Source: Cloeon dipterum (lineage: Eukaryota > Arthropoda > Insecta > Ephemeroptera > Baetidae). Taken from it: a stretch of DNA of 64,000 bases. Of this stretch, positions 1 to 64,000 are shown piece after piece. The position numbers and the translations under genes were made by a program. Each line of letters starts with the position of its first letter. Position 1 is the stretch's first letter. A model generated the notes under the pieces. That model was not told where the DNA came from. It saw nothing but the letters and a program-made list of their open reading frames with translations, and searched no databases. The DNA is taken from the NCBI RefSeq assembly GCF_949628265.1, contig NC_088789.1, positions 9,850,886 through 9,914,885 on the forward strand. The letters are read 5' to 3'.

Positions 1-3000
1 AGTGGCTGGACCGGCGATTCCTCGTCGGCAGAGATGGCCAATATGCGAGAGATGCTGTGGTCTGCCAACTTTTGGCGGTCACGCGCGTCACTGGCGTTGC
101 CTAGGTACAGGTGGGGCAGAATGCGGGAGATGGGGTGCTTGTGCAGATCGTAACTTGGTGGTTCTTCAGGCGCTGAGGAGATGAGGGTGGTTTCGCAGTG
201 CTCATGGTACTGACGCTGGAACTCTGAGTGCCCACCTAAATGATCGAAAAAAAGAGTTATAATGTAAATACGGATAATTTTTTTTAATTATCGCCATCTA
301 GCTAATTTGGAAGCTTTTTTAATCTTTATCAGAACTTGTTGAAACGTTTTTAAACCAATGGGTCATTGAAGATAACTCCAGTTAAATGTATTTCTAGTTT
401 TTTCTAGAGTGGAAGCCAAAGCCACTTGACTGTCAAGCTGTCAATCCAGCAAGTTTCTCTTTTTGTTGGTGGCTTTATTTTAAGTCTTTTAGGTGCCATA
501 GTGACGTCATATTCTTATAAAAATAAAAATTAATGACAACATACCTATCAAAACGGCAGGCTCGCGGTTCTCCTCCACCAACGAGGTGAGAGCCAGAAAT
601 AGAGGGTGTGTGGACGACAGCTTGTCGAATTCTACCGTACTCTGGTCGTAGACAATAATTTCCTTGTAATGTCGCTTACGCAGCGCTTCTTTCACCTCCT
701 TTGATGATGCAAGTTCACTGAGAAGGCTCCGCTTTGACAGCCTTTTGCGGCTGATCCGGTCCTGCAAGAAGAGCGTAATGAATTAAATCGACCAAGAAAA
801 TAAATACAAGTTTAATTATCAGGGGGTTATTTTTTCCTTCTTTCTAACCAAGAGAGTAATTTACTTTGTGTCTACCGCGCATGCGCAGGGTGTTACATAA
901 TTTTTCATCCAAAATAGCAGCCCACCTGGCAATTGATGTTGACAGAGCCAGCAATGTGACTTAGGTTGAAGGCCAAAAAGGGCCGGATGTCGATGAGTAG
1001 AATTCCGTTTCCACCACCCGTACTGAGGCTGCGCGCGAGGGAGGCGCAGTCAAGGGCGCGCACCTTGCGCAGCACCATGGAACGGTGCAAGGTGGATGAG
1101 TCGCAGCACGGCGAGGTGGGCAGCGACTGCGGCTCCAGCCTGCAGCGCTTTACCTCCGGCGAGGACGTTGACGGCGCCAGCAGCGGGCTCTTGAAGATGC
1201 TGCAACAAAGCATCGTGGGTTCACGATTAGACGATTGTCGAATGATGGCTGTTGCGTCGCAACCGCTCGATATTATTTATTTTAACTCGGCGGCTAATCT
1301 GAGGCAGATAATTTTTTAATTTGTCAGCTGATAACCCAACCGCTCAGGAGAGCTTTTAGCCGCTCAATGGTTCCCTTAATAACTTTCTAGATTATGAACG
1401 GAGGCGTAAAATGAGATAGTGATTCACGTCGCAATTCGTTTGAAATTTTGTATAGTCATATTAATCAATAGCACCGGAATTTCCTTAAACGTTATTTTTG
1501 GGCCCAGGTGTTGAAGTCAGTGCTCAAGTTAATATTAGGTAGCAAAATGCAATAAAAACAATACTAAAATTGGTGTCACTTAAAAACCAGGCAATTCTTT
1601 ACCTTTCCCGTCATTTTATTCAAGCCCAAATATGAAAAGCCAGAAAATTAAGATATTTTCAAACCAGCTACTACTTTCGTGGAGTTTTCCACTGCACTAA
1701 TTTTTCTATAGCCATTTCATAAACATTACATATCGCTCCCAATTGAACCGGTCAACTGGCTGCATTCGATTACGTGCATGAAGACAGCAAATTGATGTGG
1801 CCTTCGAGCTCATCACTGTTGTTGTATGTGCGATTAAATTTGCATGTTTACCGTTTTGCAAGAGAGGAATAAAATTACCCATCACGCATTGCGAAAATCG
1901 CACGCTAGCCTTTCTGCACGCAATCTTTGAGTGCTAAAGAGAAGTTTTCGAGCCGCGATGATGATTTGGCAAAGGGTATGGTATTTTTAAAACTCGATCT
2001 TGGCAAATGAAATGTTCAAAAGTTTTTGAATCATTGCCCGCGGGCAAAGAAAGATTGAACGCCAACTCAATTATCTGCGAGCCCAAGTGCCAAGATGGCT
2101 AAACTAGAAGTTCACTTTTATGAATCACGCACAATATAATTACCCGACAAGACTTCAAACTCAAGTGAATAAATACGCAAAATTGCACAGGGAGTGACTA
2201 AGCGTGCGACCATCACAAAGTATTTTGACGCCGCCGTATTTCTGATGAATCGACCGAATGAAGTCATAGACGAAAAATGAGTGATTTTCACACGGTGACG
2301 AATAATTGCGACTCTGAAAAGGCGCTTTTCTGAATCATCGCGGGGGTGTTTGCGCAATCATTAGGATTAGTCACGCACGATGCACAACAATTGCTAATGC
2401 AAAGACAGACCTAACATGCACACCTTGGCGGCAAGAGCGACAAAAAAAATAAATAAATATAAAGGCTTTGAGCAAGTGCATGCAAAATTACAGACGTAAA
2501 TAAGAGCAAGAGACCCGTTTAAACACTGCGAGCCGAAATAAAGTGTGGCGAATCCGATCGTGAATCATCGGCGCTGGCGAAAAGCAATACCACATCAGCA
2601 ACACAAAAATAACAGCCGATCACCCTCTTTTTAAAGGCCAAACTCTCACGCGGTGTGGCGACTCGCACTGCCAAACCCGCTAGTCCGTGCTGAACTTGCA
2701 TTTTCGAGAGCATTTACATCCGTATTTTTGTCCAACGAAGTGAAATTTGAAGGAAAATTTAAAATTTATACAAATTATCTCATTACGAAAAAATTGTTTA
2801 CTTGAAAAGACGCATGTATCTGGAAGTAATATCGTCGTTGTATTTATCAATTAGAAAATTATCCACGATGTCGCAGACACTAATTCTAAAAAACCTTTCG
2901 TGTTTTTTTTAATTAAAAAAAGTTATGCTGTAATGAAAGATATTGTGTAAGCCGTAGAGCAACCATTCAGTACAAAAATTGGATATCAGAGAAAAACATG

Positions 3001-4260
3001 CGTATTTCTGAACTATTTCCAATGATCTGAAAAGCTATTTTCGCGCCGTTTAGTCACGACGTGAGTCATGCTGCACTTTTTGCGCAATTGGACGCAATTT
3101 TGAGCGTCGAGGTGGTTGCAACAGCCTGCACGCGACTACGAATGTCAGAATACTAATCGCCGATAGCAACGATAAAGAATTGAAAAACCAACCACGCAAC
3201 GCTCTGATTGGCAATTATTAATACGCATGATTTGTTATTATCTAAACGAGATTTACGTTCAGTCAGAAATTGCGAGAAACCCATTCAGGTGTTAATTTAG
3301 AGGCAATCTTATGATGATTGCTACATACTTTATCTCGCTGTCAGCATGCATGTTTTTTCACGAGAAACTCAAAACCACTTCAATGGGATTTTACGTTAAG
3401 CACGCTTCTTTTAACTTTCGAGCGCGCGCGACGCAAATTTGGCACTTGCTTAAAGAGTTCATTTGTGACGGGAGATTGAATCTACGGGCCACATAATTAG
3501 TTTTGGGGTTGGACAAAAAGATCATGTTCAAAAGAAGGCTAGCAAAACAATATTATTTTCGAAAGCGTGACAAAAAAATGACGACGGGAACACGTGTAAG
3601 TTAGATCTTAAAATATTAATGATTTCAGCGGATAGACGTATCAAGATTTTTAATTTTATACTTACGGTGCCAATTGTGAAACAAGTTTTAATTTATTCTT
3701 AAAATGGTTCAAATATCAATTCCATGGGGCTATTTAAATTTTGAAGCTAATTTCGCAACAATCATTTATCCAGGCTAAACACCTCTTCTAAATATTAAAA
3801 GCCCTCTTTAAAATCGCGATACCAAGGAAATTAAAATACAAACTGCTAGTACTAAAACAGATAAGCAACAGAGTTGTTAAAAGTACAAGCAAAGCCAATA
3901 AAGCACGGTTTAAGGATCTGTGAACTCATTACCTTCAACTACCGCCTCTGTGCACACAAACACAAACAATCTAAACTATTAACAGAAGTAGGAAAACTAA
4001 ACAAGTTGATTGCTGGCGGCACGAGGTAAACAAAGTGGACTAGTTCTAAAAAGGCCGAACGTCCGTCCGAGAAAGCACGTTCAATGAAGAAATAAAGAGG
4101 CAGGATGTGTTTGTTACCTGGGACTGAAGGGCTGCGGCTTGTCGAGGGGCGCGGGCTCCGATACGCTGCGCGCCAGTGGCAGCCTCAGACTGGACCTCAG
4201 CTTCGCCGACTGCGGGGGGCTCTGGGGGGCTTCGGTCCGGATGGCCACCAGCGAGGTCAT
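1..4260 (-). CDS. DUSP10: MAP kinase phosphatase, DUSP10/MKP-5-like (partial, 3' end outside window)
   Basis: Four coding exons join in frame on the minus strand: 4260-4118, 1199-926, 761-545 and 235 to beyond position 1. The start ATG at 4260 is preceded by an in-frame TGA (4266-4264). Exon 1 encodes a Ser/Pro-rich N-terminus. Exon 2 holds the first part of a rhodanese-like domain (LIDIRPFLAFNLSHIAGSVN). Exon 3 continues it with DRISRKRL and KEIIVYDQST, the motifs that most resemble DUSP10. Exon 4 ends the rhodanese domain and opens the dual-specificity phosphatase domain with ISRILPHLYLGNASDARD. The catalytic HCxxGxxRS loop lies beyond the window, so activity cannot be checked. The family removes phosphate from Thr and Tyr of MAP kinases, and the DUSP10 branch prefers JNK and p38. 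That it is a MAP-kinase phosphatase is secure; the DUSP10 assignment is a similarity judgement. A long 5' intron and a dense AP-1 cluster lie upstream. Confidence 0.88.
1200..4117 (-). other. Intron 1 of the DUSP10-like gene
   Basis: This 2.9-kb stretch lies between coding exons 1 and 2. I see no other exon in it on either strand. It is AT-rich and holds one exact AP-1 site at 3062-3068 and several TGAATCA-like near matches between 2100 and 2350. The short open frames here have no recognisable domain. Confidence 0.7.
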
Positions 4261-4404
4261 CGCTCAGCTGCGGACAGACATCGGTGCTCGGTTATTTGGA
4301 GACTCCATCGCTCAAGAAAGAAACCGACTCTGGTGCGAGGCCTTTAAACGAATCGCACTGGGGGGAAACGGCACTCGCGATGACTCATCCGACACGCAAA
4401 TAGC

Positions 4405-4406
<2 letters not shown>

Positions 4407-4450
<44 letters not shown>
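4407..4450. repeat. (TC)22 microsatellite
   Basis: Forty-four bases of uninterrupted TC dinucleotides lie about 150 bp upstream of the DUSP10-like start codon. On the gene's strand this reads as GA, the sequence bound by GAGA-factor-type proteins in insects. Confidence 0.95.
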
Positions 4451-4453
<3 letters not shown>

Positions 4454-7400
4454 CCCACTAAGTGTGTGTTTCGCGCCGCCCCTAGACCCCTGAAGGCGAA
4501 CAACCCTGGGTCACCGAAAATAATGAGATATTTTAAAATCATAATTTTATTTAAAATTATATAGTATGAGTCAAGCAATGAGTGAACAAGGAAGGTATTT
4601 CAGATTTTTTTCAGGCAGCGGAACTGTTATGGTTTGTGAATCATTTATTTTTTTAAGTTTATCAATACAGGAAAATTCCAAACTACTTGAGTTGTTGGCT
4701 ACAATAAACAGTTTTGACAATTTGTTCTAAAATTGCAATTATCCAAAAAGGACCTTTCTACAGTAAAAATGCAAATTTTTCATATTTCCTCCAAAATATT
4801 CAGCGCTTGACCACATTTACTTAGCAGATTTCGATTCCTCTCGTTGAAATCTGTCTAACTGCGTATGAAACCTTTTAGGGAAACTTTTTGTTTTAAAATA
4901 GAGTAAGATTTCTAGCAGGGAGACAGTCCTCGCCATTTGAAAAGCAACCTAACTTTGAAGCCCCTTTCCTAAAATATTTACAGTGCTACCTAGATCAGAT
5001 TTGACTTTAGGGATTAGATAATGCATTGGAAACAAGGATTTTCCTGGGGTTGCAGTATCGATGAGGAGAGCAATTTTAATTTGAGTCGACGGAAGGAAAT
5101 TAAAGTAACCTAAGTTCCTATCAGTTTGAAAAATCAATTAGAAGTGTCATGAGTCAACTTTTCATGCATAGAAAAGTGAACAAAGCGATGTCGGCGGAAA
5201 TGGAAGGAAGAAACATGTCTTTATTCCATACAAAATTAAAGGACACACTCTGCTTTTATTGTATGCAAAGCCGACAGCTTCAGAACGAAAATATTCACGA
5301 CTTATATGAATATTATTACGAAGTCGAACGCGGTTCCCACAGTCGAGATTTTAGAGCGCTCGCTGCTCTCACTCTCTTCGAGGCAATAATTGAATTCGCA
5401 GAAAATTATAGCTTTTTTCCTTGTGTAATTGGGTTACTGTAATTTCTGCCTGAGAGTAAGGAACAATGAGCTGTTGGCTGATTCAGAAGTGCGTTTCCCT
5501 GAATGAAAGCCTGACTGCTTTTCGTGAATCGAGATGCTAACTGGAAGTCGACGGCACTAGTCATGACTGAGCGACGCAACATTTTTCTTAATTCGTATTG
5601 TATGGATTGTTTCGAGAGTAAAGAAACTCGCTACCGTAAAAAAAAATGTATAATGCATGAGCGAAAAATGCGTGTTTGCTATTCAAACAATAGAGAAGCT
5701 GTGACACGTGCAAAAAATACGGCGAAAAGAATAATGGTAATACTGGAATAGCGAATGCTTCTTGAGTAACCTCAGCGCGGTTCACCTGCCGGGAGCTGTC
5801 AAGAAATGACCTTTAAAGGTCGGCTAAACGCGCAAAAACCCGGTCGAATATCTCGATCTGGGAGTCAAAAGGTTGGAAATTTCTTTACCGTCTGCAGCGC
5901 CCTCGAAAGGTGGCCAGGGGGCAGCCGGGGGCCTTGGCGCGGCCTCCGGAGGCAGGAAGTGATTCGACCTTATTAGCTGAGCGAGCGATTCCAGTTCCCC
6001 CCGTTGCCGCAATTCTGTTGGTGAGTCATGCATTCACGGCAGACTGCGTCATCACGTCGTGGTATCACACACAACAGCATACACGGCTCCAATGTATTTC
6101 AACCACCTTTTGTGCCCGAGCACACCAGGTGCAAACACTCTAATCTCTGCCCGCAGCCGCCTCCCCTCCCTCCTGCAGAAAATACCCTATTGTGCATATT
6201 ATTATCGGAGCGATTTTTGCCACCTCCTCACACTTGTGCACATTCATAAGACGGCCAGAAGTTGTCTGAAATTAGAGTCTGCATTTAAAAATTAGGCTCC
6301 GGGTTAATCCACCAATTTCAATTTTTAGAAAATAAAATATAGTTTTTTATTAAAAAAATATATACATAATAAATCCTAAAGGTGCAATTTTTTAATATCT
6401 TGTGTGAATTAGGCTTACTGTCGATTTTATCCCACAAAAATTTAATATGGATTTTTGCTGTTTTTTACTTACAAAGTAAACAAGCATTAATGTTTGATGT
6501 CAGTCTTAAACATTTTCAATGTAGTATTACTTTGAGAGCTTGATGGTTCCTTGGCAACTCTTTTGAAGCCGATGTTATTAGTGGTGCCAGTTTTAAATGC
6601 CGAAAATAAGGGCTTGAGCCGGTGAGATCAGCGTTTGGAATTGTAATCAGCGACGGCCACGCAAAACACACAAACCAGCAAATGAAAATTGCCGGCCGAG
6701 GTGAGTCATGTGCTTGAAATGGAAAGTGCCGGCTGGAGTAGCTAAATGTTGTTAAATCCGTCCAATAGAGCGTTTCATTCGTTTCCAGAAACGATTTTTA
6801 CCAGTGCAGTGCACGGTGAGATCGCTTACTTTCTTCGCAACTTTTTTCTCTTTTGGAATAATATAGATTCGCAGTCTTTGCAGCACGGAGAGGTAGAAAA
6901 TGTAGTACACCATCAGTCGTGCAGAGATTTGCAACGCTGGGTTCGATTAATAAAACACGCCGCTAAAAGTGGATGTTAGATCATCAAGTGATCTCACTGT
7001 TTGCCTTTGAAGGAAATTTAAAAAAAAACCTAGTGCCGTTTAACGTGTCTGCTTTTTATCTGTTTACTTAACAACAACAGCTGTGTCGAAATTGAAAATT
7101 GGTCAGAGGGGGGTTGTAGTAAAGATAATATATATTTGATAAATCGAGCGTATGACTCATATATGATATAATTTTACGAGGTGGGGTTTCCTAACAAGTT
7201 TTACAGCTTTAATCGAATTACTCAAGGCGACAAAAATTTAGTATTATTATTCCTCTCCAAAGAACCAATAAAGACTTGTTTACAAACTAAGATTGGTTCA
7301 ACCAATAGGTATAGTAATCATAATAATCTTTGACCGTTTTTAAAATAATCCCCTTTATAAATATTCAACGAACGAGTAAAACATAATATATTTAATATTT

Positions 7401-8294
7401 GTAATAGTAACGTAATAAATAATAACGATAATTATTTTTTCAAACTCGATCAAAGAAGTAACAATTTCCTTATTTCACAAGTTGCGCTCATCCTTGATTG
7501 GAATGCTGGATGCGGTCGCATTTTTTCGCCACGCTGTCATGAAAACGTCACCAAAATTAGTATTCCTTGAGCGTTAGCAAAGGTCATGATTCACAATTTG
7601 TTTTCCTGTGTGTATGATGGGTGCTCTGCTCAAATACGCGGCGCGCATACATGTGCGTTTAAGAGGAAAAAACGCTACGCAGATATAAAGGAAAATGACT
7701 GCTCGCTTTTGGAATGGCAACACTTCCGATGTACCAAGATTGATTCACTTTTTGATTGCGTTCACATAAAAAGGAAAAAACAAGCAAGGCTGTTCCTGGA
7801 GGAAAATGAGGAAAAAATAAATGCTGTGGATTATTCCACGCAACCACACAATGCGTGTTTAACAAGCAGACAAAATTTCCCAGGAATCACCACCAAACGC
7901 TGGTGGTATTTTTATCTGACGCGAATCGTCAATCGTGTCACCCAAGTGTTTTACTAGCGATGAGCCAAAAACATCCGCATTCGAAACAAACAAGGGGGAA
8001 ATGCACTTTTGGCGGGACGAAATGTGGGTCAATCCGATTTGGAAAAGAATCCGAGTTGGCGGCACGTGAGACTGTCGCGAGCAGGGGAACGGGGGTGACA
8101 GGACGGGGGATAATTGCGCGTTTCACTCTATTTCAAGCCGGTGAGTGACTCACTCCGGCCGTGCAGATGATGACTAACGAGGGATGCAAAATGCGGGGTG
8201 TGCAATTGACAAACCCCTGAATTATGAAATGAGCGACAACAACACAAAACGCACGCGGGGGCAGCGACCATGACAATTGGGTGCGTGAGTCACT

Positions 8295-8298
<4 letters not shown>

Positions 8299-8344
<46 letters not shown>
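8299..8344. repeat. (AG)23 microsatellite
   Basis: Forty-six bases of uninterrupted AG dinucleotides lie between AP-1 sites at 8286 and 8386. It is complementary in sense to the TC tract at 4407-4450, so the two tracts form a long-range inverted pair. Confidence 0.95.
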
Positions 8345-8347
<3 letters not shown>

Positions 8348-9064
8348 TGCGCAACACCCATTTCGACTCCAGAACCCGCGCGTCGTGAGTCAGCCGAGTG
8401 AGTCACGGGGGTTGACGGGTGGATGGGTGATTCATCCCCCGGGGGTGCATCCGGCGTGCCGAATCAACAGCTGAACGCACCCTGTCAATGAGCCATTCAT
8501 GCACCGGAAGCACACACGGAAGAGAAAAACGCGTCAAGGCTAACCGCACTCGCGCGCTGCCAAAGCGCCGTTTATCCGCCACCGACGGAGATGCGAGCTC
8601 CTTTCCTGGCAACATTCTCTCGGCTCGCCTCCTCCAGGAGCACGCTACACGTATTACATACTTTCCGGAAAAGTGTGCGTAGTACCGCGATAGCGTAAAG
8701 TAGCCGAGCGACCGCGATAATAATAATAATGGTGGCGTGAGTCATCCTGCAGAGACGAGGTGACGTCATGCGATAGGCTCACTCATTTTACATTATTTAC
8801 ACGCGCCCGCCGACGTTTCGCAGGGTCGGCCCGACAGCTGGTACATAGCAGAGCCGAATCCGCGACTGTCACCTGCCGGCTCGATAGGAGCACCGGTCAG
8901 CCGAAGGGCAAAACAGGGTCGGCAGGTGAAAAATAGAAAACGCGCTTTTGAAAGTCCTGGCGTAAATAGGCGCATGGTTTGGCTGTTTGTTTACTTCCCT
9001 CGGGCTCTATAGCCGCGCCAGGGTGCGAACCCACGCGTCAGGGGCTGCTTGAATGACCACTCAC

Positions 9065-9262
9065 CTCTTTTGGGTCCAAGGGCGTCCGCAGGGTTGGCTT
9101 GTATTCCTTTTTGTTAGCGAAGAGTTCGCCGAGGACGAGCGGTGGCTCCGCGAGTGCAAGACAGACTGGCTGCGGCGGCTCTCGGCTCTCCCACTCGCAG
9201 CAATTGCTATAGGCGCTCACTGACGTCACCGAGAGGAATCCCCTTCCCTACACAGTGACTCA
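9065..9262 (-). promoter_or_regulatory. Candidate promoter and first non-coding exon of the DUSP10-like gene
   Basis: On the minus strand an AP-1 site (9256-9262) and a CRE (9221-9228) are followed by a TCAGT initiator overlapping the CRE. A GC-rich stretch then ends in a strong donor, GTGAGT, at 9064. This arrangement fits a first non-coding exon of roughly 155 bases. There is no clear TATA box and no good downstream element at +28. The stretch is also open in one frame, so an N-terminal coding extension is not excluded, but the in-frame stop just before the ATG at 4260 argues against it. Confidence 0.35.
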
Positions 9263-11512: not shown

Positions 11513-13338
11513 TTATAATTGGGACATACCTTTGGCTTCCTTCTTGGCAGGGGTAGCTGCTTTAGAGGTTGAGGGGCGGGGTCGCTTGGCTGCTGGGGTG
11601 GCCTCGCCTTCAGAAGACTGCCGCTTAGCAGCTCGGGCAGCACGAGACTCTGCAGCGGTCTCTTTCTTGACAGGCTGGTGTAACCATGAAAGTCATTTTC
11701 ATTGCTTATTGTCAATTACGATTCTAACTCACCGGTTTGGTCTGTTTGGATGGTTTTATGTCCTCTTCTTCCGATGAAGACTCTGACGATCCAGATTCTT
11801 CTTCACTACTGTCGGATTCACTCTCGCTGCTGCTGCTACTCTCAGTAGATTTCTTTCCTTTACGTTTGGGGCTTGTATTAGCATTTTGCTCCTTTTGGCG
11901 CTTTTTCTTGAGCTGCGCCTGGTCCGTAAACAAACTCAGGTCCAACCCATCAGGATGGCTTTCACTAACTTCAGGACGCTCTGAGCCTGATGGAAGATAA
12001 TGATTAGATAGATGTCGCCAAAGACTGGGGTAGCAAAGGTTACCTTTTTCAACAGCTAAGGCTCGGTCTAAGATGCTTTTGATTCGGTTGTACTCTTCTT
12101 TAGGCAACCGATACTTGTTTTTGTCCACTCTATCCAAATTCAGGCTAGTAAGTATGCAGTCAAAATCTGTAGAATGAATCAGGTAAGATGTTTTGCAATG
12201 ATGATCAATATGAGGTGCAAATTACCGGTGTTGTCATAAAAATCTGGTGAGTAGACCTCCGTATCTGACTTGTCTTGGCTTAGCCAGCGTATACGAATTT
12301 TATGGCTCTTCTTGGTGATGTTGTGCGTGGCCTGGCAGACATAGAAGCTTCCTTCTGCATTTCGGACCCCCAGAAACTCATTCCTGTAAGGTTAAAAATT
12401 AGTTATGTAGTCAATGTTTTGTTCCATAGATGGCACTAATTATGCCATTAAAATTCCACACCCCCACAGACATTTGAAACAATGTTCTAGCTAGAGGCTA
12501 GAGGGAACGCCAGAGAAGCTCTTAATTAGTTGTGATATAGCGAGTAAATAAATTATTTTACTTAACATGATTTCATAAGCTAGAAAACCTGATAACTTCC
12601 TCTATTTACTAACAGGAAAATGGAAAGTATTAGATAAAATAAAGTGAACATGAAGATATAAAACATAGATCTCACTGAAAACTGAACTCACTTAAAGAAA
12701 ACAACAAGCTTGTCGTCCGGACTTTTGGGCCTTTTTGGGGTGGGTTTCAGGCCAAGGTCGGCAGTTGTAAGCGGTGCCTGATAAGGCTGAGTGCGAGTAC
12801 GATTGCGTTTGGAGCGCTGCTCTCCAGGAGTGGTATCAGGGGCTGGTTTGGCCTCCCTCTTGCGCTTATTATTGGCCTTGGGAGCCGGTGGTTCTTTCGC
12901 GGGTTGCTCTTTCGCGGGTTGCTCTTTCACGGGTTGCTCTTTCACGGGTTGCTCTTTCACAGGTTGCTGCTCTTTAGCTGGCTGCTCCTTGGGGGCGACC
13001 GGCGCTGGAGCTTCCTTCACTTCCTTAACGGGGGTGGGTTCCTTCTCCTTGGCCGGTGCAGGTGGCGGCGGGGTCTCCTTGGGTGGAGTCGGTGCTGGTG
13101 GTTCAGGGGCGGCCGCCTCCACCTTCGGAGTATGGTTGGTCGTTGGAGGTGGGTCGGCAGGGGCCGGTGGGGGCGGCTCGGGCTTGCTTTCGGTGCCATT
13201 TACCGGCGGCGTCTCCGTTTTAACCGGTTCCGCGGGTTTCGAGATTGGTTTTTCGGCGGCGGGGGCGAGCACCGGCGCGGCCTCCGCGGGGGCGGCCTGG
13301 GGCGGCAGCAGCGCAAGCGGCGCCTCAGCGTCGGTCAT
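11513..13338 (-). CDS. Unrecognised nuclear protein: Pro/Lys-rich N-terminus, conserved core, acidic Ser and basic C-terminus
   Basis: Five exons join in frame: 13338-12692, 12383-12226, 12166-12044, 11986-11733 and 11674-11530. Reading through the last donor (GTATGT) gives a stop at 11515-11513 and about 447 residues; a further small exon is possible. Residues 1-200 are disordered and rich in Pro, Ala, Glu and Lys, with KEQPV/KEQPA pentapeptides and basic runs that look like nuclear signals. Residues about 200-310 form the only folded-looking part (VVFFKNEFLGVRN, IRIRWLSQDK, VYSPDFYDNTDFDCILTSL). A Ser/Glu acidic block and a basic tail (KRPRPSTSKAA) follow. I do not recognise the family. The aromatic-rich core resembles a chromatin-reader barrel only in pattern. 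AATAAA on this strand lies at 11273-11268. Confidence 0.82.
12899..12965 (-). repeat. 15-bp coding minisatellite (KEQPV/KEQPA repeats)
   Basis: About four to five near-identical 15-base units encode Lys-Glu-Gln-Pro-Val or -Ala in exon 1 of the nuclear-protein gene. The units differ at only one or two bases, which suggests recent expansion. Confidence 0.85.
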
Positions 13339-13590
13339 AGCGGCGTTTATTTACAAGTGTCGCTCAAAATGGCCGCCCATTCAGCGGAGCAGCGGCGTCG
13401 AAGCCGTCGGCGGCGTCCTGGAGGTGCAGTACCTTCGACAGGAGTGCAACGGCGAAGGTGGTCCCTTTGGCAACTGGGGTCGTCGGCGGGGGCAGTGTTC
13501 GCGGCGATTTTGGGCAGCAACCGGAGGCGGTGTTTCCAGCAAGCTACACCGACGCGTCTCTCCACACAGGCAGCGCGCGAGTTTTGAGTG

Positions 13591-13608
13591 TGACGTCACG
13601 TGACGTCA
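13591..13608. promoter_or_regulatory. Double CRE, 18-bp perfect palindrome upstream of the nuclear-protein gene
   Basis: Two TGACGTCA octamers at 13591-13598 and 13601-13608 are separated by CG, making an 18-base perfect palindrome with a CACGTG E-box at its centre. It lies 253 bases upstream of the start codon, where a promoter is expected. It could bind ATF/CREB dimers at the sides or a bHLH dimer at the centre. Confidence 0.7.
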
Positions 13609-56275: not shown

Positions 56276-56309
56276 TCAGTTCGAGTGAAGCTGAGTTCGC
56301 GAAAGGATA
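56276..56309 (+). promoter_or_regulatory. Candidate Delta core promoter (Inr plus DPE)
   Basis: TCAGTT at 56276-56281 fits the arthropod initiator. Taking its A (56278) as +1, GGATA occupies +28 to +32 (56305-56309), the exact spacing and consensus (RGWYV) of a downstream promoter element. No TATA box is seen. The 5' UTR would be only 35 bases, which is short, so a more distal start is possible. Confidence 0.45.
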
Positions 56310-56312
56310 TGC

Positions 56313-59300
56313 ATGCGTGAGATGCGGCCCCTGCTGCTTGCTGTGCTGCTGCCGCTGGTGCTGTGGCCCCAGGTAAGACGCGTTGCCACCCTCGCGTGCC
56401 ACCCCCGTCGAGTGTCCGCCGATCTGACTGTGCTTTTATTCCAACAGGAGGCCGACGCCAGCGGACTGTTCGAGCTGCGCTTGTCCACTTTCGAGAACCC
56501 CATCGGACAGGACACCAAGGGACAGTGCTGTGACGGCCAGAATGTTGTAGACAGTCGCTGCGAGAGCCGGTGTCTCACCAGCATCCGTGTGTGCCTCAAG
56601 CACTACCAGGCCCAAGTGGACCCAAATTCGGCCTGCACCTTTGGCAGCGTCAAATCGCCAATTCTCGGAGACAGACTCATCAACGAAAGCTATAACTTCT
56701 ATATCCCCTTCAATTTCACATGGCCGGTGAGTGTCAACGCCCCCCCAAAGTGCTGTCAGTGGACGCGGTGGTTTTGCCAGGTGGACAGTGCTCTAGCTGT
56801 GCGTGTGTGACATTATTCAGCTCTCGATTGGATTATTTCTGAGTGCATCTGCCGCTGGATATCATTTGGATTTAACGTCGGATCGAGGAAAAGGCTTTGG
56901 TGTTGAACGAAACTTAGACTTTCAAGATAGTTTCTTAAATAGTTCCTTTAATTTTTTTCCCCCCTATTTAACTCCGTCTCCTATCAAGGAGCGGACATTA
57001 TTTTTGAGTCGTTATTTTACGCAGAAAATAGTTTTTTGAACGATGCTATCTCAAAGCAAGTCGTTTTCATCTCGCGTATATTTAATGTCAGGCTAAAGAA
57101 GAAGCTCCGTCGAAACAACGCCAAGCCCTTTTCTCTCTCTCCGACGGCGAGAATCTGAATTTGGCACAACGCAAGCCGGCGAATCCATCGTGCAAAACCC
57201 GCGTCACCGCACCACCCCAAACAGTGAAAAGTGAACAAATCCAGCCTGCATCTCCCAAATAATGCCGCCTCAGTGATATGAGCAGCTGAAATTCGTTTTG
57301 CGTGCGCATTTGGATTACGCTTCTGCCTCAAACAAAGTGCCCTGCTCGGGATGTCCAGACCTTTTCCATAAATAACGCTGCCCGCGTCTGCCTACCTGCC
57401 GCCGTTTTATCGGGAACCCATTCCTCTAAGCCTAACTGACCACCTCCTTTTCATTAAATTATTTTTTGTAATAATCTCGGGTGCGGGAGTGTGTGTGTGT
57501 ATGCGCGCAGCTCCTCCACTAAATCGTGAAACAATGCTCGGATTCTTCTTTCTTTCTTTCCTTGTACACACGAGGTAGGCACAACTTCATTAAATGTTTT
57601 TCTCTCCCGGCCGACGCGGCTGCCAAAAGGTCGAGGAAGGTGGGCATAAATTGAGCTGGCTGCAACGCCGGCGTAGGTGATTATTCGGTGGGCCCGTCCA
57701 AACGGACCGACCGCGCATGAGATCCATCCTTCCACGTTTATCCAAGTTGGCCGGGCAAGGCAGGCAGGCAGGCAGGGCTCCTCGGTAATTAAAGAGGGGA
57801 AAGTCTGCTCGAGAGGTCACAGGCATGACCGAGAGTCGTGATTCGGCTGCTCGTAAAAAAACACAACCTGAAGAAGCAAGCGTGACCTGATCGCTAATAA
57901 TTATTTATCGTTTGTTATCAGCGCACCTTCTCGCTGATAGTCGAGGCCTGGCACGACTCCAACGAAACACGGGGTGAGTACACAAAACCATGCTTCTTAT
58001 CTCTTTTCGATTTCGTGCGCACAACCCCTTTCGCCGTTTTTTGTAGATCCGAGTACAATGTAATTATCCATTGTCCGAATTATCGCGGCCTGCTCGCCGT
58101 TCCGCTGCTGTTGCTCGCGCGTTTGTTTATTTCTTCATTAAACTTGCTGCACACATTGTTTAATTATCTAGTGCATATAATCGACTTGGCAGCCTGACAG
58201 TTCTTTCGCCCCCCGACATTGTGTTTTGCCGTCGAACGAAGTCTGCTCCTAAACGTATTTCGGCAAGGACTAAATCGAGCTCTTTTTGCAACATTGTTGC
58301 GCCGCTCTCTCAAAAGCTCTAAAATTGGCTAATTTTTACGACGGAAATTATTTTTATTATTGCTTGTTTACACTGCGTCTGGGTCCAAGGTCATTGCGAT
58401 TGGCAACGCTGTCCACCCTTTGATGCCGCCATTGTATAGCAGAGCGACTTTCCTTAATGAGCATCCGTTTAGCGGGTCATCACGCGGGCCGTTACAGTTT
58501 TTCCGCCTATTGCACAACTTTTCCCAACGCTTCTGCTCGAAAATTAAAAACTTTTAACGCAATCAGTGCTTTAACCCTTGCGGCACACTACGCGTGCAGC
58601 GCGTTCTTTAAATTTCGGTGAGCCCCTAGCTGTTTCCGTTTTTGCCTGCCGTCCGCTCTTTCTTCCTGCGGCGGATATAGATTGATGAATGGCGAGCTGA
58701 AAGTTGATCTGTGCGACGTGTCCTCTGGATGAGGAGCATCGGGAGTGCGTATGCGTGTGTGTTTGGCCAACGGCGGCGGCAACTTCCTCAGCTCTGAGGC
58801 TTCCACGCTGCTCGCTCGCCAGCAGCAGCAACGGCAGCACGGCTAAAACAAACTACCTGAGCAGTAAGGTGGAGATACATATGCCACTTCCGACTGCACG
58901 CGATCTCTCCGGCGAGGTTCCCACAGCCCAATTGCATGTTTCGGGTCCAGCATGCGAGCCATAAACCGAGAGGAGAAAAAAACTCATCTCCATTTTCCAC
59001 ATCTCACACACCCTGCGCGCATTGTTAATAATAATTTTATGTTTCCAAGCTCTCGTGATTTTTCATTCAAATTACTATCGGTTTTATTGGCTGCGCTCAG
59101 GCAGATGGAAAAGCTTCTCGGAATTATTAGCACTGCCGTTTCATTCGATATGATTATGGCCGTTCACGTTAATTAAGTTGCGAGCGTGATTTTCGGCTCG
59201 GCGGCCTCTGTGATTTTTTCCTAATTTACTGCTGGCGTCTTTGTTTGTTTCGACACAAAAGTGTAGCACCCATTCACCTTCTTTTTCTTCGGGGATAATA

Positions 59301-62300
59301 TTTCATTTCGCCAACCGAATGCGCGATAATTTGAAGCGGAGCTTTTTCACACGCTGCCTGCGAGGGTCGTGGTAAAATCTCTCCTCCGCCTGGCGTCTTC
59401 CTTGTCTATTTATCCGGATTTCCTACCCTCTTCAAGAATTGTTTACTCTCCAAACAAGCCAGCTGCTGTTCTGGTAAAATACTCGCTTTTGATATAGTCA
59501 ATAGAGAGGAGCGCTCTGTGGCTTAAGGAAAGGAACTGCATATTGCATCCCCCGTCTGCGGAGGAACGACCTCGATTAGAGCAGCAGAAAAAAAACTGCT
59601 GCGAAAATTGCGATAAACGAACGCATCCTTCCTCTGCTGTTGCGCGGCGGCACTTCCTTTTCGATGATTGGAAACAGTTGCGAATTTATTCCGTTTTTGA
59701 CGGCAAATGCCGCGAGCAGCGTCCATTTCCGCTGACCGCGCGCGACGCCCGCCGCCTGCTTTTATCGCGCGCGCGCGTTTTAATTGCAAACTTGGCCTGA
59801 ACTTGACCGATAATGCGTCTTCCTGCGTTGCTGCTGCGCCGGCAAGCAGTTTAAATGCCGCATTAATTACGGCCGGGCGCGCGTTCTCGTGTGTATTTTT
59901 CGCCAAACTCGTCTTTTGCCGCATTTGCAGCGTTGGTCGTTACACTTCCTGTCTTTTTAAATTCCCCCTGCGCGCGCGTAACGGTCGGGGTTGACGCGAG
60001 AGGGGCGAGTATGAAAGCATCATACGATTATTCCGCACCCCCTGAATGCACGATCAAACAGCAACCACTGACGGGGAAAAAAATTACGGCGGCCCTGAGC
60101 CGGGCGCCTTCAGCTTGGCTACCTGCTGCCGCCGCCGCTGCAGCAGCCCAATTGGGTTTGTTTTTTACTCTCCGTGCTGTTGTAAATGGTGAGAAACACA
60201 CCTGGCGTCCTCCATCCATCCACTCCATATGCCAGACCGGCATCTGCTTCTTTTTCGCCACAGGAAGGAGCCTTTCTCACACACAGGCAACAGCCAGCCT
60301 TTCTTTAAAATCTCCTGCCTTATCTGAATGGTGCGGCGGCGGGCCTGCTCCGATGGGTCGCGTGAGTGCCCTCGCCGCCCCCGGGGCCCACCGCCGGCCC
60401 AAAGGCAGACGCACGCGTAACTCGGCTGCCTATTCCCTCTCTTTTCACGGAAAGTGCCCGTCTTTCTTTCTCTCTTTCTTCTCCAGATCGCTGCCAGCGA
60501 AACTGGTTTTTTATTGTTAAATAATCGTGCTGCCGAAATTTGTTCTCGAGCCGGGGGAAAAAACAAACAAACAAACGCACGGTGACAGCTCGCCAATTAC
60601 GCAATGGAAAGTGATCGGTCAAATTCGCAAAAATTGAATTCGAAGACGCGCGTCTTCTCCACCTGCCGCTTTTAATAGGTCTCGCGCAGTCGGCATTCGC
60701 GAGCGAAAGTTGATGAAAATCTCCAGCCATTAGCTCATCCCGCGAGTTGCCGTGTTTTTATCCACCTGCAAGTACATAAACTGGCAGTCGAGAGCGATAA
60801 ATTTAATTTTCCCTCCGCTCTTACGTGAGATACCATTCCCTCTCCCTGTCCGCCGCCGCAGCCGCTGCTGCTGCTGTCAAATATGAGCAAACTCGTCTTG
60901 ATTGGCATTCAAAGTGGCGTCGTGAAAAACACCTGTAAACAAGTTTTAAATTTATTTACATTCTTGAATGCAGATTTAGAAAGTTGAGTGGATCGTCTTC
61001 GTCTCGTTCGAATAGCACTGCAAATTTTTCTCTTATTTACAGTCTTGATTAATTTGGTTAACCGCCGAAGTGAATAAAAAGCGGGCGAGCGAGTGTTAAT
61101 TAATCACGCCACTCAATCGGCTGAGAACCGCCACCGACTCTCTCATAATTCACTCACGCAGTGATTTCCACAATGGAATCGATTTGTTTTTTTTCTCTCT
61201 CTCTCTCTTTCTCGCTCGTCTCGAAAATGAAATTTCTTCTGGAGAGCAGAAGCGATGGGCGCTCGCTGGCCGCGGCTAAAAAAAGCGGCCGAGTGCTTCT
61301 TTTTTGTCACCTCGGCGTGCGGTGTTGTGAGCAGGCCGAGTGAGTTTATTTCCACGGCTCTTCCTGTTCACTGCTCTCGAGACGGACGGAGGATGGTGCG
61401 TCTACTGCACACGCGTCTCGCTCCATTGCGCCGTCAGGGAGACAATTTTACCGAGAATCATTCGATTGTCAATTTTGTGTTCGTTTCCTGTGCTTTTTGC
61501 TGCCCATTTTCCACTCCCTTTTCACATCGATTCACTCGAGTCCTCAACTCGACCGAATTTACTCGTTTTTTTTTCTTATTTTCTGCGCGTATACAGCGGA
61601 ATTGAGAGGCTGCCAAAGTCACGCTGCTTGTGTATAGATTTTCCTCATAGCCCCGAGACGCGGTCGCTTTCGGAGACCAGTGCGAAACGTATATATATCC
61701 GTGGCTCTCTGCTCGCTCGCCAAACTATGATTTTCGCAAATGATTTTTTCCTTGGCACGTGCAGTTATTTATTTACACTCGGCTTCCGATGAACTGCTCC
61801 TCCTCGAGGCCGGTTTCCGCCTTATCTGCAGCCAGCGCTGTGTAATTTCTCGGCCCGAGACTTGGACTGCAGTCAAAAGTTACAAAACACCCTCCGTAAT
61901 TGTCATCGCGACGGGGTTATGCGTGTAAATTTGGCTTGCTGACTTAATTGCCCAGGCACTTCGCAAACAGAAATAATAATGTGTTTATTTCCCCTGTTTC
62001 AGGCAAACGACGGCTGCTCTTAAGGCACACCCTTCAGCAGAACGTGGACGTCGGCACGGAGTTCAAGCCGGCCAGGTTATTCAAGGACCAAATGTCGCTG
62101 CAGTACGAATACCGCGTGACCTGCGACGCCAGCTACTACGGTGAAGGGTGCGAGGTGCTGTGCAAGTCGCGCGATGACACCTTTGGCCACTACACCTGCA
62201 ACCGGCAGGGCAAACGCGAGTGCAATCCCGGCTACACGGGCGACTACTGCGATAAATCCTTGTGCATGAAGGGCTGCGTCAACGGCTTCTGCAGCAGGCC

Positions 62301-62312
62301 CGGCGTCTGCGA
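56313..62312 (+). CDS. Dl: Delta, DSL-family Notch ligand (partial, 3' end outside window)
   Basis: Four exons join in frame: 56313-56372, 56448-56726, 57922-57973 and 62003-62312, giving 233 codons so far. Exon 1 is a signal peptide (MRPLLLAVLLPLVLWPQ). Exons 2-3 hold the MNNL (C2-like) region, with SGLFELRLSTFENP, VCLKHYQAQV, FNFTWP and TFSLIVEAWHD; the last is typical of Delta rather than Serrate. Exon 4 contains the DSL domain (CDASYYGEGC, SRDDTFGHYTC, GYTGDYC) and the first EGF-like repeat (CMKGCVNGFCSRPGVC). Delta is a membrane ligand that activates Notch on neighbouring cells. The usual CRPRDD of the DSL domain reads CKSRDD here. A three-codon upstream ORF starts at 56309 and overlaps the start codon. 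The remaining EGF repeats, membrane segment and tail lie beyond the window. Confidence 0.95.
56727..57921 (+). other. Dl: Delta intron 2
   Basis: A 1.2-kb intron from GTGAGT to TTATCAG. It includes a (GGCA)5 run at about 57757-57776. No other gene is seen. Confidence 0.8.
57974..62002 (+). other. Dl: Delta intron 3, GC-rich
   Basis: A 4-kb intron, unusually GC- and CpG-rich, with many overlapping but featureless open frames. It contains a Su(H)-type site (GTTCCCACA, reverse TGTGGGAAC) at 58917-58925, a CT-rich run at about 61191-61208 and (AAAC)n near 60563. Such introns often hold enhancers, but none is proven here. Confidence 0.75.
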
Positions 62313-64000
62313 GTGAGTATATAAACCGATTTTTAGTTTTGAAAATCAGTGAAACTGTGCGAGCCACGCGCGGTCTCGGAGGAGTATCGTATTTAACGCG
62401 CCGTTAAATGGCGCGCGCGCTCGTTCCCGGCCCAAATCCATAAAAATACAGTTACCCCTTCGGCTGGTGTAACTCGAGCGTGATTTCGATTTCCCAAGTA
62501 ATTCGAGAAAAAAGAGCATCGTGTAGAAATGAAATCGCTGCCGCGGAGGATCGCTTTCCGTTTGAAAGTTAAAATAAGAGTTTATTTACTCGCGGCTGGC
62601 CGCTCTCCCATCTACACAGCGCGCGCTCATTAAAATTGACAAAACAGTCTCGGTGTCCATGCGGATGAGCGAGGGGATGGCTAGGCTCGCCGGCCGAAAA
62701 CCACCCCCCTGGTGCACCCCCGGCGGTGTCACCGGCCGGCGCTGCATGCACGCGCGCGCTGCTGCCGTCGGCGGTGGCTGTCACTGCTGTGGCAGACGCG
62801 CATGCAAATAAATCCGCCAGCGTGTTCACTGCGCCGCTGCCGTTGCTGCTGCTTTATGTGAACACTTACACATATATACACTCGCACACACAGAGTGAGC
62901 GCATTTGAATTACAAATACGGCGCGCTGACTCGTTTCCAAAAAGAGTCCCCTCTGCGCGGCTCCATTTTCCACACATTTGTCCGTCTTCATATGCCACTT
63001 TCACGCGGAATTTGCTTCACAAACGACGCAAATTGGTCGAAACGCCGCCGGAAATCGATCTTTTCACTCGCAAACCCGGGTCGCGCGGCATAAAGCTTTT
63101 ATTTACGTCTCGACTCGGATCAGTCCTCCCCACATGGAAACACGAAAATTTAATTTTGATGCGCCTTTTGGGGAATTTATGCCAGCTGGCGAGGACCCTC
63201 TCTGACAGGTGGAATCATGATGAAATTTAAATGTTTAATGTTTTAGCTTCATTAATATGTTAACTAAAACTAGCATTTTATAAAAAGGAAAATGGGAAAG
63301 ACGTGGAGTGGATAATGGTCCGACAAAAGTCCTAACCGATGAAGCTTGTAAGATTAAATTTTGACACTGCAAACCAGATTCGCGAAAATTTTGCAATGTC
63401 TTTTTATTGTATCCGCCATTAAACCGGCCTTAGTATTCCGCTCGAGACGTCTACACTGACGTAGTACTCGAAAGAAAAAGAAAAAAATATAAAAGACTAA
63501 TGAATTGCACATTGCTCTCGTTGTTATGCGATTACCAGCTCGAGGATAATAAATAAATCGGCACCTGGACTTAAAGAGCAGCTGTCAATTTCAAGTTCAC
63601 GGTGCTCCGAGATTGTCTTGTAAAAACATCTGCGTCTGCTTGAGACAAAAACGGGTCTTTTTGCACCAAAAACGTCCTCAGACGATTTTACACCATTCAC
63701 GCCAAGTGGCATGAGTAAAGTGGTGGCGGACTCGAGAGGGTGGGCTGACACTTGACGCGCGCTCGCTCGCGGGGTGCAATTGCGTTTCAATCGGCCGGAA
63801 AACGCGCTTTGCACGCACACAAAGGGGTTCCGTCTGCCGGCGTCTAATTTCGCGAAGTGATTCAATCTGCCGAGCGTCTGCGAGGAGCAGGAAGATGCCA
63901 GCCAGCCAGCCAGAGGACCGATTTTCTCACACACACACAGATACACTCCGTACCCACGCGTTGCACAAATTTGCTCAATCGGGCCGGTTTGCTGGTTTAA
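62313..64000 (+). other. Dl: Delta intron 4 (start)
   Basis: It begins with GTGAGT after exon 4, and no further EGF exon is found before the window ends. It contains a (GCCA)n run at about 63897-63913 and GC-rich patches. No independent gene is seen. Confidence 0.7.

Follow-up and report, generated by a model that had tools for sequence, protein, structure and literature searches.

In Drosophila, puckered (puc) is described as a target of JNK that exerts negative feedback (PMC10552427), and DUSP10/MKP5 is published as its counterpart (PMC6264519; PMC10552427). Many enhancers are reported for the introns of the fly gene, and the conserved element RS2 contains a c-Jun/CREB-type site, printed as TGACGTCA (PMC8623796). 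In human MCF-7 cells, a time course led to the inference that AP-1 regulates DUSP10, and AP-1 regulation of DUSP5 is cited (PMC4503981); according to a review, MAPK feedback is proposed for DUSP10 (PMC6480380). The Drosophila damage enhancer BRV-B at wg/Wnt6 is reported to be JNK-dependent via several AP-1 sites, deletion of which abolishes its activity (PMC4786413). The locus analyzed here resembles puckered in its DUSP10/MKP5-type phosphatase, in its candidate regulatory elements within introns, and in the presence of c-Jun/CREB-type sites. It shares the proposed link to AP-1 with human DUSP10 (MKP5) and DUSP5, which are genes of a mammal and not of an insect. It differs from puckered in that 13 exact TGASTCA sites are found in 6.2 kb, whereas the fly paper, in its accessible part, mentions a single c-Jun/CREB element without any comparable array (PMC8623796). 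BRV-B, with a different target gene, is a single enhancer for which three AP-1 sites are predicted, compared with the 13 sites over 6.2 kb known here from sequence. A literature search by title and abstract, with most subscription journals outside its scope, gave no AP-1 array at the DUSP10/puckered gene of any insect other than Drosophila among the matches listed.

The stretch of DNA analyzed as a whole (the window) comprises 64 kb (C4:9850886-9914885) of a genome of 190.1 Mb in 10 contigs. A sequence-only reading had counted, within 3062-9262, 13 AP-1 sites and two CREs, which was borne out by a pattern search of the window (13 exact TGASTCA and two TGACGTCA; Table 1). Its by-eye estimate of about six AP-1 sites elsewhere was also correct, as exactly 6 of the 19 TGASTCA in the window fall outside this interval. 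In the putative gene model, the two array sites not in intron 1 lie near the putative 5′ end and in intron 2, one each. Sites 3062 and 8738 have a 16-nt context in common (3060-3075 and 8736-8751, 15 of 16 positions or 94% identical; CGTGAGTCATSCTGCA), which is possibly a composite site or a short duplication. Intron 1 also contains two GA/TC tracts of 46-48 bases (4407-4454 and 8299-8344), each with an AP-1 site at most 20 bases away; a possible link to GAGA factor is only a thought. Outside the array, two tandem CREs 10 bases apart (13591-13608; TGACGTCACGTGACGTCA), with TCACGTGA in the middle, are located ∼250 bases upstream of a minus-strand reading frame rich in proline and lysine (12688-13350). 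A Notch ligand of the Serrate/Jagged type, with MNNL and DSL domains, has exons at 56295-62316.

Table 1. Features of the phosphatase gene and of the AP-1 site array (window positions unless a contig is given).
Feature	Position	Strand	Remarks
Putative non-coding first exon	9065..9250	-	Donor AAAGAG/GTGAGT, read by eye; start at 9250 is a guess
Intron 1	4268..9064	-	Includes 11 AP-1 sites of the array's 13; 5′ boundary taken from the putative first exon
Exon 2	4118..4267	-	Holds the ATG (MTSLVAIRTE...)
Exon 3	926..1199	-	N-terminal region and start of the rhodanese domain
Exon 4	545..761	-	Further part of the rhodanese domain
Exon 5	1..235	-	Start of the phosphatase domain; continues past the first base of the window
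Exon 6	C4:9849767-9850035	-	HCQAGVSRS; outside the window
AP-1 core array, 13 exact TGASTCA	3062..9262	.	Pattern listing, rarity, and heptamer comparison
TGASTCA starts, first seven	3062, 4381, 4567, 5150, 6022, 6702, 7153		Pattern listing
TGASTCA starts, remaining six	8146, 8286, 8386, 8399, 8738, 9256		Pattern listing
CRE (TGACGTCA)	8761..8768	.	Intron 1, 16 bases past the AP-1 site at 8738-8744
CRE (TGACGTCA)	9221..9228	.	Close to the putative first exon; AP-1 site 9256 follows after 27 bases; location relative to the transcription start judged by eye
Weaker-core TGAWTCA, ten sites	1420, 2027, 2121, 2331, 2561, 4637, 5479, 7587, 7741, 8428 (within 1420..8434)	.	Five in intron 2, five in intron 1

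When the five coding exons were spliced on the minus strand, an uninterrupted protein of 406 residues was obtained, with a Pfam Rhodanese domain toward the N terminus (3.4e-10) followed by a DSPc domain (1.3e-32). The catalytic motif HCxxGxxR is intact (HCQAGVSRS, exon 6). Human DUSP10 (MKP5) was the closest solved structure for both domains among the best 60 of 81 matches, with 120 bits for DSPc (98 for DUSP2/DUSP5) and 92 bits for rhodanese (58 for DUSP16), which supports the DUSP10-type phosphatase that had been read from the sequence. The presence of a rhodanese domain may set the product of the array gene apart from fly Puc. A profile scan of the genome for DSPc gave 31 matches, 11 of them over the curated cut-off, the array gene included. 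No second gene of the DUSP10/8/16 type was seen among the 16 of these 31 translations that were inspected by eye, with the 11 above the cut-off all included; one further classical MKP among the 16 was DUSP6/7/9-like (Mkp3-like), and there was no other. With 151 residues of the gene product as query, a protein search returned its own two exons alone at E values up to 1. The idea that a different phosphatase is wired in the same way as puckered is therefore not supported: as DUSP10/MKP5 is the published counterpart of puckered, and as no second such phosphatase was seen in the 16 translations or in the protein search, the array gene is probably puckered itself. The two genes would then be one-to-one orthologs.

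The enrichment scan against dinucleotide-shuffled sequence, which had been proposed beforehand, revealed a clear excess: 100 shuffles of the whole window contained 5.96 TGASTCA per 64 kb on average and 12 at most, whereas the window itself contains 19. Markov sequences derived from the 6.2-kb region (1000 for each order) had means of 0.62, 1.08, and 1.31 at orders 1-3 and largest counts of 4, 6, and 6, compared with the 13 observed. Genome-wide, there are 19,022 TGASTCA (11,575 for the reversed-pattern control), corresponding to 0.62 per 6.2 kb, against which the array is as unusually large as had been claimed. Chance or composition as its source was rejected by the shuffles, the genome rate, and the Markov controls, and an origin from a repeat or transposon was rejected by repeat search, the near-repeat pair of 16 nt being the sole exception. 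The excess of CREs is weak, with two in the array and 6403 TGACGTCA in the genome (0.21 per 6.2 kb). Relative to their reversed patterns, TGASTCA is 1.6x, TGAWTCA 3.8x, and TGACGTCA 2.4x as frequent genome-wide.

How exceptional the array is depends on how evenly such sites are distributed. From a Poisson scan, the number of equally large clusters expected in the genome is 7e-8, 3e-4, 0.04, and 9 for site rates of 1x, 2x, 3x, and 5x the mean, respectively. The window outside the array is at the mean rate (6 TGASTCA in about 58 kb). Six random stretches of 10 kb contained 1, 1, 4, 3, 1, and 1 sites; in the 29 loci surrounding DSPc matches (91 kb), there were 23. In 54 sampled loci outside the array, some of which overlap each other and many of which were picked around phosphatase and bZIP genes (Fos and Jun loci included), 54 TGASTCA were found in 259 kb, ∼2x the genome mean; rates of AP-1 sites across the genome are thus uneven. 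Among 100 sites listed for the first 1.49 Mb of contig C1, which as a contig end may be atypical, no site-anchored 6.2-kb window had more than 4. On the same contig, four TGACTCA spaced by exactly 4398 bases (C1:112321-125515) probably belong to a tandem repeat near the contig end, and TGAATCA at regular intervals in C1:598589-615859 (602332/613340 and 604851/615859 each 11008 apart) probably mark another long one. TGASTCA pairs with no more than 30 bases between them number 96 in the genome (28 for the reversed pattern), where ∼59 are expected from site density, so AP-1 sites in general cluster just mildly. The array is exceptional unless local site rates are strongly uneven.

The excess could also be recovered irrespective of any motif. 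When the heptamers of 7.97 kb of non-coding 5′ region were compared with those of 226 kb, TGACTCA came first after GA simple repeats (13 vs 1.48 expected), followed by GACTCAC, which overlaps it (8 vs 0.92), and TGAATCA (10 vs 1.73). Compared with the window beyond 9320, TGA[CG]TCA and TGA[AT]TCA had density ratios of 13.7 and 6.5, the two highest values for the 14 commonest palindrome-type heptamer classes (128 in all). The weaker core TGAWTCA (34,442 genome-wide) occurs 10 times in 8.1 kb, where 1.47 are expected. Words with one mismatch outside the core center were not enriched (15 vs 11.1 expected). The excess is hence specific to the AP-1 core and not to near-miss words, the center-changed TGAWTCA being itself enriched.

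In its flanks, AP-1 prefers RTGASTCAY, and 9 of the 13 array sites (by eye) conform to it, compared with 4414 of 19,022 genome-wide (p 5.5e-4), 14 of 54 in the sampled loci (p 0.005), and 30 of 100 among the C1 sites listed (p 0.004). However, all 6 sites of the window outside the array have these flanks as well, and no such bias was present at the Fos (2/7), Jun (1/4), and Mkp3 (1/3) loci, so the test is not clean and the bias is only partly useful as a sign of function. Grainyhead sites, which are expected in wound enhancers, were absent from the region (0 vs 4.33 expected), which leaves a reading of the region as a Grh/AP-1 wound enhancer unsupported.

The factors that would bind the array appear to be encoded in the genome. 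A bZIP profile scan gave 19 matches, two translations of which are presumably Jun-like (L049) and Fos-like (L054), as judged by resemblance to known family sequences. In the 10 kb (L061, C3:15029500-15039499) upstream of the Fos-like bZIP exon, 7 TGASTCA and 5 TGACGTCA were found, which suggests that Fos itself may be under AP-1/CREB control. The corresponding 10 kb contained 4 TGASTCA for the Jun-like exon and 3 for the Mkp3-like gene. M10 peptidases (MMP-type) are candidate AP-1 targets, and at two of three such loci the upstream 10 kb contained 1 and 0 TGASTCA; AP-1 density is thus not a marker of every expected target. For MMP1 of the fly, the reporter region is described as intronic (PMC4786413). 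The outcome for the positive-control loci (Fos, Jun, and M10 peptidase) was mixed.

Taken together, the array is probably a distributed AP-1-responsive region, promoter-proximal and intronic, of a DUSP10/MKP5-type gene that is the probable puckered ortholog. On the best reading, it fits the well-known JNK-AP-1-puckered feedback loop and does not represent a new one; it is the number of sites that is unusual. What was computed in favor of this is the excess of sites, the specificity for the core, the location at the 5′ end and in the first introns, the domain make-up of the protein with its nearest class, and the presence of Jun/Fos-like genes.

Since AP-1 acts downstream of several MAP kinases, the Jun/Fos sites might instead constitute mainly tissue enhancers under other inputs (ERK, p38, developmental factors) and not JNK feedback, which we consider unlikely. 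The sites are indeed spread across 6 kb and form no single short enhancer, and the introns of fly puc drive expression in many tissue patterns, much of it JNK-independent (PMC8623796), which counts against a reading as JNK feedback. On the other hand, the product class of DUSP10 acts on JNK/p38 (PMC6264519), and puc expression in dorsal closure and at the edges of wounds is reported to require Jun (PMC8623796), which is why feedback is favored. It is still less probable that the array is bound by other bZIP dimers with a TGASTCA core (ATF/CREB, CNC-Maf, ATF3/Jun). The genome does contain other bZIP genes among its 19 matches, and two CREs are present in the region, yet their excess is weak; the NF-E2-like extension TGASTCAGC, by which CNC-Maf/Nrf2 sites were rejected, is found at just 1 of the 13 array sites, and TGACNNNGC is not enriched (2 vs 2.78 expected). 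Least probable of all is that the cluster has no function and simply arose from composition, a repeat family, or neutral drift, as the GA-repeat tracts in the region and the uneven rates (∼2x the genome rate in sampled loci) might suggest, given that region-derived Markov controls reach 6 at most, near-miss heptamers are not enriched, and the flanks differ among sites, with no repeat family carrying them save one 16-nt pair.

For the feedback control region, we infer AP-1 occupancy, a transcriptional response, and the MAP kinase target of the phosphatase. JNK (and p38) would activate Jun/Fos, dimers of which would occupy many sites across the 5′ region and the introns; transcription of the phosphatase would rise upon this occupancy, and the phosphatase would in turn inactivate JNK/p38. 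That 23 TGANTCA sites with two types of core lead to a graded response is speculation. A bolder version, considered less likely than not, is that few homotypic AP-1 arrays of the genome are as dense as that of this JNK feedback gene. With strong TGASTCA and weaker TGAWTCA over the promoter and two introns, the phosphatase would follow AP-1 in a nearly direct and graded manner and would brake JNK steeply. Such a layout may go back to the insect ancestor, with flies having kept a sparser form of it.

The JNK-AP-1-puckered loop was worked out in flies, and the analysis suggests that it is written in the DNA of another insect, where it is visible from the sequence alone. A functional array would give a non-model insect a native JNK/AP-1 reporter that is ready for use, and would allow one to test how strongly a feedback brake acts, in wound healing and under stress, depending on the number of sites.
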